Below, one piece after another: positions 17,852-20,529 of a stretch of DNA of 43,225 nt. The stretch is from positions 1 through 43,225 of the IMG/VR virus record IMGVR_UViG_3300046485_000008; one strand, written 5' to 3'. A program made the position numbers and the translations under genes. The DNA comes from a virus. The first letter of the stretch is position 1. Each line of letters begins with the position of its first letter. The notes below the pieces were generated by a model, which did no database searches, had not been told where the DNA came from, and worked only from the letters and a program-made list of their open reading frames with translations.

Positions 17852-18180
17852 TGGGACTCTTCGGCTGGGATCTCCCTCCAGGATGCAGGGCTTGTGATCT
17901 CCCAGGGGGTGAGCCAGATCCCCCCTGTGAGATCTGCGGGAAGGATGTGGACTCCTGCATCTGCCCCGAGTGCCCTGTCTGCTTCCAGCAGGGGGCTCCC
18001 GAATGCTATAACCCGAACCCGACCATCTGTGACAAGGGCACGGACCTGGCCCTCTGCGATCACCCGTCTGGGGCTCACTGTTCACTGGTCAGGACTCAAG
18101 CGCAGATTGATTCCCTCGCACAAGCCGAGGCAGAGTGGAAGGACATGGGGAGCGACCATGACGGCTACGATGAAGCATAG
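17848..18180 (+). CDS. Cysteine-rich protein (12 Cys in 110 residues)
   Basis: It starts at ATG 17848 (a second ATG follows directly), overlapping the previous stop. Twelve cysteines occur in CRAC, CEICG, CICPECPVC and later single positions, enough for three metal sites. An acidic tail rich in Asp and Glu follows. The sequence resembles stacked zinc ribbons without a recognised family. Its last bases overlap the next gene. Confidence 0.6.
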   Translation: MMGLFGWDLPPGCRACDLPGGEPDPPCEICGKDVDSCICPECPVCFQQGAPECYNPNPTICDKGTDLALCDHPSGAHCSLVRTQAQIDSLAQAEAEWKDMGSDHDGYDEA

Positions 18181-18394
18181 ATACGCACTGGTCCCTCTCC
18201 GACTCATGGAGAGATTCCAGATCAAGACCGACCCCGACTCCTTCATCTCGCAGGAGGTGGGGGACGAGGAGGTGGATGCCCTGCTGGATCAGGGATACCT
18301 ATGGGTCCGCACTGAAGGGGGGTTCGCCCTCCTTGAACTCGTCCTGGACCCCTCTGCCGTCGTTCTGGATGCCCTCCAGATCTCCAAGCCATGA
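18158..18394 (+). CDS. Hypothetical small protein
   Basis: The ATG at 18158 is chosen for its GGGGAG site; ATG 18170 is an alternative. The 78-residue product has RYALVPLRLMERFQI and an acidic region with DEEVDALLDQGYLWVRTEGG, ending in a hydrophobic helix. No family is recognised. It overlaps the methyltransferase start by 4 bases. Confidence 0.52.
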   Translation: MTATMKHRYALVPLRLMERFQIKTDPDSFISQEVGDEEVDALLDQGYLWVRTEGGFALLELVLDPSAVVLDALQISKP

Positions 18395-19572
18395 ACCAGG
18401 AGCCCCATGTACCACTTCGCGAGATGCACCTCTTCTCAGGGGCTGGGGGAGGAATCCTCGGTGGGCTCCTTCTCGGGCATGTTCCAGTCTGCGCCATCGA
18501 ACTGGAGGAACACTGTCGGGAGGCTCTGCTCCAGCGTCAAAGGGATGGAGTCCTCCCCTGGTTCCCCATCTGGGATGATGTCCGAACCTTTGACGGAAGA
18601 CCCTGGCGAGGAAGAGTGGACATCTGTGCAGGAGGATGGCCGTGCCAGGACATTTCAGTCGCAGGACTGGGCGAAGGGCTTGATGGAGAACGCTCTGGAC
18701 TCTGGGATCATTTCGCAAGGATTATTGGCGAGATACGACCCCAGATCGTATTCCTGGAAAATTCCCCAGCCCTCACTTCTCGGGGGCTGGGAAGAGTTCT
18801 CGGAGACTTGGCCGAGATGGGGTATCTGGGGGTTCACGGGGTACTGGGCGCAGACGATGCAGGGGCTCCCCATGTCAGGAAGCGGATGTGGATTCTGGCC
18901 TACACCCGTGTCTTCGGATGTGGGAGCGAGGAAGAAGAGATACGCCCAGGGCGGGATGCCCCTGAGCCTAGCCGCCCAGATCTGGCCGACCCCGACATGC
19001 AACATGATCAGCGGGGGTCCGAATCACTCCTCCCCACAGGTCCTGGCGGGGAAGCATGGGATCAATCTGCACGGGGCAGTGATCTCCTGGTCCACCCCGA
19101 AAGCCAGGGACTACCGAAGCCCCAGAGCCAAGGAACCAGACAGCAGGAACAGCCCAGACCTGAATGTTCAGGTGTTCCTGGAGGACGGCCGGCCGAGTGG
19201 TGGGATGTTGAACCCCCTCTGGGTCGCATGGCTGATGGGGTGGCCGCCAGGGTGGGAAGACTCCGAGCCCTTGGGAACGGGCAGGTTCCAGCAGTGGTGC
19301 GACTTGCATGGCATGTCCTGCACGAACGAATGAAACAGACAAGCCATGACAAGTGCCCGATCCTATTCAGGGAGCCTGAACCATCACCCCAGGAACGGCG
19401 CGGCCCCGCACCTCCTGTCCAGAAGGAGCCTGACCGTGAAAAGCCAACTGGTCCCATATCTGTGTTGCTTTGGCTTGGGCATCATCGCCAGAGAATGGCT
19501 TGCCTTAATCCGAATCGCCTTGAAATACATCAGACCGTAACTGTCCACAAGGAGGCACCATGGCTGGGCTGA
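18391..19572 (+). CDS. DNA (cytosine-5) methyltransferase
   Basis: A 393-residue reading frame with the C5-methyltransferase motifs in order: I FSGAGG (15-20), IV GGWPCQD with catalytic Cys85, VI ENS (123-125, ENV in most), VIII RKRMWI (163-168) and IX/X GRLRALGNGQVPAVV (about 303-317). It transfers a methyl group from SAM to carbon 5 of cytosine in phage DNA, usually for protection or as a first step to further modification. The region after motif VIII is low in complexity, and the same DNA encodes a second conserved-looking protein in another frame. The last 80 or so residues run into a compositionally different cassette and may be an artefact of its insertion. The start has no clear ribosome site and relies on coupling (ATGA). 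Confidence 0.85.
   Translation: MNQEPHVPLREMHLFSGAGGGILGGLLLGHVPVCAIELEEHCREALLQRQRDGVLPWFPIWDDVRTFDGRPWRGRVDICAGGWPCQDISVAGLGEGLDGERSGLWDHFARIIGEIRPQIVFLENSPALTSRGLGRVLGDLAEMGYLGVHGVLGADDAGAPHVRKRMWILAYTRVFGCGSEEEEIRPGRDAPEPSRPDLADPDMQHDQRGSESLLPTGPGGEAWDQSARGSDLLVHPESQGLPKPQSQGTRQQEQPRPECSGVPGGRPAEWWDVEPPLGRMADGVAARVGRLRALGNGQVPAVVRLAWHVLHERMKQTSHDKCPILFREPEPSPQERRGPAPPVQKEPDREKPTGPISVLLWLGHHRQRMACLNPNRLEIHQTVTVHKEAPWLG
18407..19333 (+). CDS. Overlapping second protein in the methyltransferase gene
   Basis: A 308-residue frame, +1 relative to the methyltransferase, open across nearly its whole length. Its ATG has a perfect AGGAG four bases upstream, better than the site of the methyltransferase itself. 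It contains ARYDPRSYSWKIPQPSLLGG, FSETWPRWG, two WPTP motifs, LAGKHGINLHGAV, STPKARDYRS and LNPLWVAWLMGWPPGW. I recognise this order from phage proteins usually annotated as methyltransferase-related and from C-terminal parts of other phage cytosine methyltransferases. Conserved motifs in both frames argue for real dual coding. The function is unknown; a target-recognition or partner subunit is inferred. Confidence 0.6.
   Translation: MYHFARCTSSQGLGEESSVGSFSGMFQSAPSNWRNTVGRLCSSVKGMESSPGSPSGMMSEPLTEDPGEEEWTSVQEDGRARTFQSQDWAKGLMENALDSGIISQGLLARYDPRSYSWKIPQPSLLGGWEEFSETWPRWGIWGFTGYWAQTMQGLPMSGSGCGFWPTPVSSDVGARKKRYAQGGMPLSLAAQIWPTPTCNMISGGPNHSSPQVLAGKHGINLHGAVISWSTPKARDYRSPRAKEPDSRNSPDLNVQVFLEDGRPSGGMLNPLWVAWLMGWPPGWEDSEPLGTGRFQQWCDLHGMSCTNE
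19436..19540 (+). CDS. Small membrane protein candidate, first gene of the foreign-looking cassette
   Basis: A 34-residue product from GTG 19436 behind TGTCCAGAAGGAGCC, the leader type shared by the next five genes. It is hydrophobic (PYLCCFGLGIIAREWLALIRI) and ends in a basic KYIRP. It lies inside the C-terminal extension of the methyltransferase frame. The shared leader is the main support. Confidence 0.4.
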   Translation: MKSQLVPYLCCFGLGIIAREWLALIRIALKYIRP

Positions 19573-19944: not shown

Positions 19945-20529
19945 GTGAAGTTCTCAACCATCGTTTCCGATCCACCCTGGGCCTACAATGCCCCGGCCCA
20001 ATTCGGATGCACCCTGGAACACCGTCCCAACCGGGACAAGACCAAGGGATGCCTGGGCGCTGGCTCCAGTTCCCGCTATGGGTCCATGACCATGCCCGAA
20101 TTGAAGGCACTCAAGGTCGAGGATCTGGCCGAGCCCAATGCGCACCTTTACCTCTGGACCACCAATTCATTCATGGTCGAAGCTCACGATCTAGCCCGAG
20201 CGTGGGGATTCGACCCCAAGACCATCATCACCTGGACGAAGTATCGCCATGAGGACGGCCAGCCCTCAATGAAGATGGGCTATTACTACCGAGGGGCCAT
20301 GGAGCATTGTCTGTTCTGTGTCCGTGGATCGCTCCGATTGATGGGTCCAGCGGCTTCCACGGCACTACTCCTACCCCGCCGACCACACAGCGAAAAGCCT
20401 CCCGAGTTCTACGAAATGGTTGAGTCGCAAAGCCCCGGCCCCTACCTGGAAATGTTCTCCCGGCGTAAGCGGTTCGGCTGGTCTGCCTGGGGCAACGAGT
20501 TCAACCCCGATATTCAACTCGGCGCTTAA
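19945..20529 (+). CDS. MT-A70 family N6-adenine methyltransferase
   Basis: A 194-residue protein from GTG 19945, preceded by TGTCCAGGAAGGAGCC. The catalytic motif DPPW lies at 9-12, in STIVSDPPWAYNAP. It is followed by HLYLWTTNSFMVEAHDLARAWGFDPKTIITW-like alternating strands and helices and by RPHSEKP, the usual late motif of MT-A70 phage enzymes. The final motif LEMFSRRKRFGWSAWGNE also fits. It would methylate N6 of adenine in phage DNA. It sits in the cassette with a different leader and codon use, so it may have been acquired separately from the cytosine methyltransferase upstream. Confidence 0.85.
   Translation: MKFSTIVSDPPWAYNAPAQFGCTLEHRPNRDKTKGCLGAGSSSRYGSMTMPELKALKVEDLAEPNAHLYLWTTNSFMVEAHDLARAWGFDPKTIITWTKYRHEDGQPSMKMGYYYRGAMEHCLFCVRGSLRLMGPAASTALLLPRRPHSEKPPEFYEMVESQSPGPYLEMFSRRKRFGWSAWGNEFNPDIQLGA

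Follow-up and report, generated by a model that had tools for sequence, protein, structure and literature searches.

A phage C5-cytosine DNA methyltransferase gene whose two overlapping reading frames very probably encode two subunits of one enzyme

The locus and the proteins of its two frames

The window, that is, the whole analysed stretch of DNA (43,225 nucleotides, positions 1 to 43,225 of IMG/VR record IMGVR_UViG_3300046485_000008), belongs to an uncultured virus record. The GC content of the window is 61%. Siphovirus-like genes for tail assembly, the terminase large subunit, the portal, the head protease and the tape measure are present, together with genes for ParB and an MT-A70 adenine methylase. 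The latter gene (19945-20529) lies shortly downstream of the locus under study, and two types of DNA modification are probable for the window phage. When a few neighbouring ORFs were scanned for a cognate restriction endonuclease, the only proteins recognised were the MT-A70 adenine methylase and ParB.

The locus consists of a C5-cytosine methyltransferase gene (alpha) and a second frame (beta) that is nested within it at +1 (Table 1). Both ORFs were found where a preliminary description of this DNA had placed them; the beta frame was confirmed to be open for 308 codons from 18407, as was the claim that AGGAG stands four bases before the beta ATG (18398-18402) and that no Shine-Dalgarno sequence precedes alpha in the window. 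The ATG of beta follows that of alpha by 16 nt.

Table 1. Features of the alpha/beta locus, with positions numbered along the window.
Feature	Position	Strand	Remarks
Upstream ORF	18170-18394	+	74 aa; same frame as beta; its TGA overlaps the alpha ATG (ATGA)
alpha, C5-cytosine methyltransferase	18391-19572	+	393 aa; motifs I-VIII and X, without motif IX; Pfam DNA_methylase PF00145, E=1.4e-25; PHROG_363, 5.5e-60
Shine-Dalgarno sequence of beta, AGGAG	18398-18402	+	4 bases 5' of the beta ATG; from sequence
beta	18407-19333	+	308 aa; +1 frame, nested in alpha; PHROG_1008, 2.2e-19
beta leader (aa 1-109)	18407-18733	+	kept open, weakly constrained; low model confidence; interrupted in 21/127 relatives
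alpha motif I	18433-18453	+	
alpha motif IV	18631-18651	+	GGWPCQD with the catalytic cysteine
beta functional core (aa 110-304)	18734-19318	+	SWK block, WPRWG, WPTP blocks, motif IX, FQxW tail; column z up to 32; beta-type substitution from VIII to IX
beta SWK block	18734-18781	+	
alpha motif VI	18751-18786	+	
beta WPRWG	18797-18823	+	
alpha motif VIII	18871-18894	+	HVRKRMWI; end of the catalytic domain
beta WPTP blocks	18893-18907 and 18980-18997	+	
alpha spacer (aa 177-283)	18919-19239	+	pLDDT <50 nearly throughout; codon position 1 fastest; non-dominant frame
beta motif IX-like block	19208-19255	+	LNPLWVAWLMGWPPGW; regex match in beta of most loci, in alpha of none
alpha motif X	19258-19290	+	RLRALGNGQVP; directly 3' of beta motif IX in the DNA; alpha-type constraint back

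The hallmarks of C5-methyltransferases, i.e., motifs I, IV (PCQ), VI (EN), VIII and X, are present and conserved in alpha, and PC and ENS are invariant or nearly so in the alpha alignments (A2, A4). Motifs I, IV, VI, VIII and IX/X had been attributed to this frame in the preliminary description; the attribution stood for all of them except motif IX, the pattern of which (searched as a regular expression) was absent from every alpha among the relatives scanned. In the AF2 model of alpha, pLDDT exceeds 90 over most of residues 11-170 and is about 97 at residues 301-310, and comparison with M.HhaI in Foldseek gave an rmsd of 2.0 over 171 columns; the catalytic domain and the stretch around motif X are modelled with confidence. 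The model is poor between about residues 177 and 283, a low-confidence gap at the place to which the recognition region and motif IX belong. Neither motif IX nor a recognition domain was found in the alpha chain, residues 177-283 of which lie largely below pLDDT 50. At its far end (19340-19572), alpha extends about 70 codons beyond motif X, more than most relatives do; its last 43 residues have pLDDT values below 50, and this tail may be a chance extension.

The IX-like block of beta has the consensus LNPxWVxWLMGWPxGW and sits directly before motif X of alpha. Motif IX was assigned to beta by its position together with short similarity, and the reading of LNPxWVEWLMGWPxGW as motif IX is supported by a distant methyltransferase (L055, 2486-3409), in which motif X belongs to alpha and a classical motif IX (LTWTECERLMGFPDGW) is read at +1. 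Modelled on its own, beta gave an AF2 model with a pLDDT of 55 and a pTM of 0.30 that shows local elements only, among them one helix over motif IX (aa 270-276) and one at aa 292-301; nearly every residue from 1 to 104 scores below pLDDT 50. So poor a solo model would fit a subunit that folds on its partner, yet it would fit many other things too. A fold search returned no structural match for this model, the beta profile gave chance matches only against the PDB, with no solved methyltransferase among them, no Pfam family was found for the beta of the window, and no HNH match was found among 79 betas. PHROG_1008 is matched by all 79 of these betas (79/79), and relatives of beta occur in 97 phage records. 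Relatives of the second translation, the lack of which had been named beforehand as evidence against it, are abundant in the databases.

Both frames are under protein-coding selection

For the window taken alone, the evidence that beta is coding is suggestive, not conclusive: among synonymous shuffles of its gene, in which the alpha protein and the codon usage are preserved, 0.35% contain a +1 open run of at least 308 codons. With a codon alignment of 39 alphas and shuffles that likewise preserve each protein and its codon usage, three +1 stops were observed in the overlapped columns versus 179 expected, and 547 stops were observed versus 470 expected in the +2 frame. The shortage of +1 stops extends over every region of beta, the leader included (1 versus about 55 in columns 99-214). 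Column z-scores of beta rise up to 32, in SWKTxQ, TWPRWG, WPTP and LNPxWVEWLMGWPxGWTxLxPL...FQxWLxxHG, and conservation there goes far beyond what alpha imposes; conserved DNA lifts identity in all frames, and column z alone is no proof. Because identity in the +2 frame is also raised in the same columns, reliance was placed on the stop counts and on the substitution patterns at the three codon positions.

Substitution rates at alpha codon positions 1/2/3 were determined from 152 pairs of alphas (62-97% identical), which share sequences and are not independent. In motifs I-VIII the rates were 0.154/0.087/0.335, with the third position of alpha fastest, as in an ordinary gene. From VIII to IX they were 0.532/0.332/0.395 and over motif IX 0.258/0.085/0.116, the first position of alpha, which is the wobble position of beta, being fastest in both stretches; over motif X (0.135/0.098/0.362) the third position was fastest again. 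Synonymous suppression over the whole gene is a weak, mixed signal and becomes clear once the gene is divided by region. The test of synonymous sites in aligned homologues that had been proposed in the preliminary description gave a fall of the alpha wobble rate from 0.335 in I-VIII to 0.116 over IX. The alpha and beta frames are both under protein-coding selection, and constraint alternates along the DNA from alpha (I-VIII) to beta (recognition region and IX) and back to alpha (X). As judged from the assigned motifs, the order of this alternation is the motif order of one ordinary C5-methyltransferase, divided over two chains.

The idea that beta is a chance open frame in GC-rich DNA, its similarity being a mere echo of homologous methyltransferase DNA, is in keeping with the 61% GC of the window and with the observation that some similarity is seen in every frame of DNA homologous to alpha (the +2 column identity is raised as well), but its probability is negligible, given that the frame is also open in AT-rich relatives (L003, L060 and L065, 38-44% GC), that stops are avoided in +1 and not in +2, and that the alpha wobble rate drops over motif IX. 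Chance openness, which had been called possible at the outset, was ruled out by the synonymous shuffles and the substitution patterns.

Relatives, layouts and start sites

Scans with beta and alpha were carried out on IMG/VR and on phage, plasmid and genome collections and yielded more than 140 loci. At every locus at which both were found, beta lies in the +1 frame of an alpha; this includes 80 of the 80 genome loci kept. When GTDB genomes were searched with the beta alignment, at least 286 places were confirmed, in many bacterial phyla and in two archaeal MAGs. The 16 closest loci retrieved by alpha alone (L034-L049), and thus unselected for beta, all have beta (16/16). Two further, near-identical loci (L050 and L051) are decayed, with both frames broken, and in a decayed copy from an E. 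coli prophage (L148, 4001-4762) each frame is interrupted by a stop, the two lying almost side by side (offsets 363 and 367). In these decayed copies the alpha and beta frames have been lost together. Stops in the beta frame are confined to its N-terminal third, in 21 of 127 relatives, and the core is uninterrupted in intact relatives. Homologues with a broken second frame and a retained methyltransferase, which had been named beforehand as the observation that would speak against beta, were therefore not what was found: the core is intact, and the two decayed genes are broken in both frames. The leader is dispensable, because the beta frame opens only later in those 21 of 127 relatives.

Motif X is located in alpha at 71 of the 80 genome loci and clearly in beta at four. 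In an AquI-like layout, seen in eight relatives (L002, L012, L039, L057, L064, L086, L129 and L140), alpha stops just past motif VIII and beta has both IX and X; L048 has the nested layout and is not AquI-like. On the tree of the catalytic domain these eight rows need seven changes of layout, a rough number, the bootstrap being not settled. Such movement of motif X from one frame to the other would make little sense if the two did not contribute to one enzyme.

At 76 loci an ATG or GTG of beta stands exactly 4 nt after the NTG start of alpha, and at 68 of these a TGA in the beta frame directly precedes the beta ATG. An upstream ORF of at least 40 codons terminates at this TGA in 30 of the 68 tandem-start relatives. 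Since the upstream ORF ends at the pair of starts, a ribosome finishing there could restart in either frame.

In RefSeq and GenBank, alpha alone is usually annotated, sometimes beta alone (as a hypothetical protein) and rarely both. Thus, RefSeq lists only alpha (DNA cytosine methyltransferase) in L060, L061 and L147, where beta is missing, and both frames are annotated in some phage records (L002, L004, L064). In a record of a Pseudomonas aeruginosa plasmid (L062, 958-1644), the annotated hypothetical protein is beta, and alpha (ORF 945-1628) is unannotated. The E. coli prophage region of L147 contains a second DNA cytosine methyltransferase gene (1043-2029), about 2 kb upstream of alpha/beta.

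One enzyme in two chains: interpretation and known systems

Alpha and beta are very probably two subunits of one C5-cytosine DNA methyltransferase, alpha forming the catalytic and cofactor half and beta the half with target recognition and motif IX. Alpha would fold into a SAM-binding catalytic domain (I-VIII) and resume with motif X past the spacer; beta, translated from its own start codon, would add the target-recognition region and the motif IX that alpha lacks. Together they would form a single heterodimer, which would modify the phage genome, most likely against host restriction. Production of both proteins, their binding to one another and methylation of a specific site by the complex are what we infer. 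The substitution pattern from VIII to IX suggests that it is beta which contains the recognition region.

A single full-length chain could also be produced by programmed frameshifting, with a start in alpha, a +1 shift into beta after motif VIII and a return before motif X. Read along the DNA, the motifs follow one another as they would in one chain (I-VIII from alpha, then the recognition region and IX from beta, then X from alpha), and one shift would be enough in the AquI-like relatives. We nevertheless regard this mechanism as very unlikely: the common layout requires two opposite shifts, and beta is already constrained opposite alpha motifs V-VIII, a stretch in which the two frames are therefore in use simultaneously. 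The beta leader, upstream of any shift, stays open (1 stop versus 55 expected, columns 99-214), and the beta start is conserved (z of 7-14 in the MSW columns; the 4-nt tandem start in 76 loci). Frameshifting is disfavoured because beta keeps a conserved start codon and an open leader, neither of which is needed for a shift. The preliminary description had left the choice between two subunits and linkage by a shift; two separately initiated subunits are favoured.

Alternatively, beta might be a separate phage protein of independent function that shares its DNA with a methyltransferase sufficient in itself. Viruses often have overlapping frames whose functions are unrelated, beta matches no Pfam family, and a mobile HNH endonuclease of the ShiLan type can be hidden as an insertion in the third frame of some phages' methylases (PMC11855218). 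The locus described here resembles the latter in that a second protein is encoded in another frame of a phage methylase gene; it differs in that the overlap is the methylase itself, always at +1 and with no HNH match. A separate function for beta is highly improbable, as alpha is without motif IX in every relative, the IX-like block of beta stands exactly at the place of IX, motif X has switched frames in scattered lineages, and every beta found is the +1 frame of an alpha.

Division of one C5-methyltransferase into two chains has precedents. Lee, Kam and Shaw reportedly described M.EcoHK31I in 1995 as the product of two ORFs (about 309 and 176 aa), the shorter of which is read from the longer in a different frame, and both polypeptides are reportedly needed in vitro. 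The large polypeptide of this enzyme has motifs I-VIII and X, the small one has motif IX, and the target-recognition domain has been assigned to the large subunit (PMC3404938). In M.AquI, the large subunit carries motifs I-VIII, and the small one has the recognition region together with IX and X (PMC3404938). Complementation by fragments is known for single-chain C5-methyltransferases (PMC3404938, PMC5944983).

As described, M.EcoHK31I (YGGCCR) and its relative M.EaeI are like alpha/beta in having two chains, with IX only in the small one and X in the large one. The small subunit of M.EcoHK31I is likewise reported to overlap the large one in another frame; here the overlap is +1, both for the window and for 80 of 80 genome loci. 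The differences are that the recognition domain of M.EcoHK31I is in the large subunit, whereas here the VIII-IX region is under beta constraint and the corresponding part of alpha has no confident structure; that beta usually starts beside the alpha start and spans almost the whole gene; and that alpha/beta is a widespread phage or prophage gene. M.AquI (CYCGRG) shares its layout with the eight AquI-like relatives, whereas the window and most relatives keep X in alpha and have a nested beta.

Two-chain C5-methyltransferases being known already (M.EcoHK31I, M.AquI), alpha/beta is a variant of them; what is new is how widely it occurs among phages and prophages, far beyond two enzymes, that its constraint is interleaved and that the recognition region appears to be part of beta. 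No paper on the phage alpha/beta arrangement was found in the open-licence literature searched. The proteins themselves are not unseen: beta and alpha are contained in PHROG_1008 and PHROG_363, both labelled DNA methyltransferase, and some records annotate both. These labels are silent on shared DNA and on a single enzyme; what has been missing is the connection between the two proteins.

If alpha and beta are indeed subunits of one enzyme, hundreds of phage and prophage cytosine methyltransferases are annotated at half, and alpha cloned alone would give an inactive enzyme. Prediction of target specificity from alpha would go wrong, as the recognition region would lie in the other frame. The loci also form a large collection of dual-coding genes that lends itself to clean tests, with selection on either frame resolved to single residues. 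More tentatively, the overlap may be a conserved means of interleaving one enzyme in two frames, with either chain working precisely where its partner serves as spacer; the recognition region could then diversify largely decoupled from the catalytic core, and target specificity could be altered by the ratio of alpha to beta or by phages swapping beta during co-infection, a possibility that we hold to be rather doubtful.

Two distant methyltransferases (L054 and L056) carry a LSPKACAGILRRA-type stretch in the +1 frame. Together with L055, they have other recognition sequences, and their C-terminal parts are likewise in +1; division of C5-methyltransferases between frames may extend beyond the alpha/beta family.
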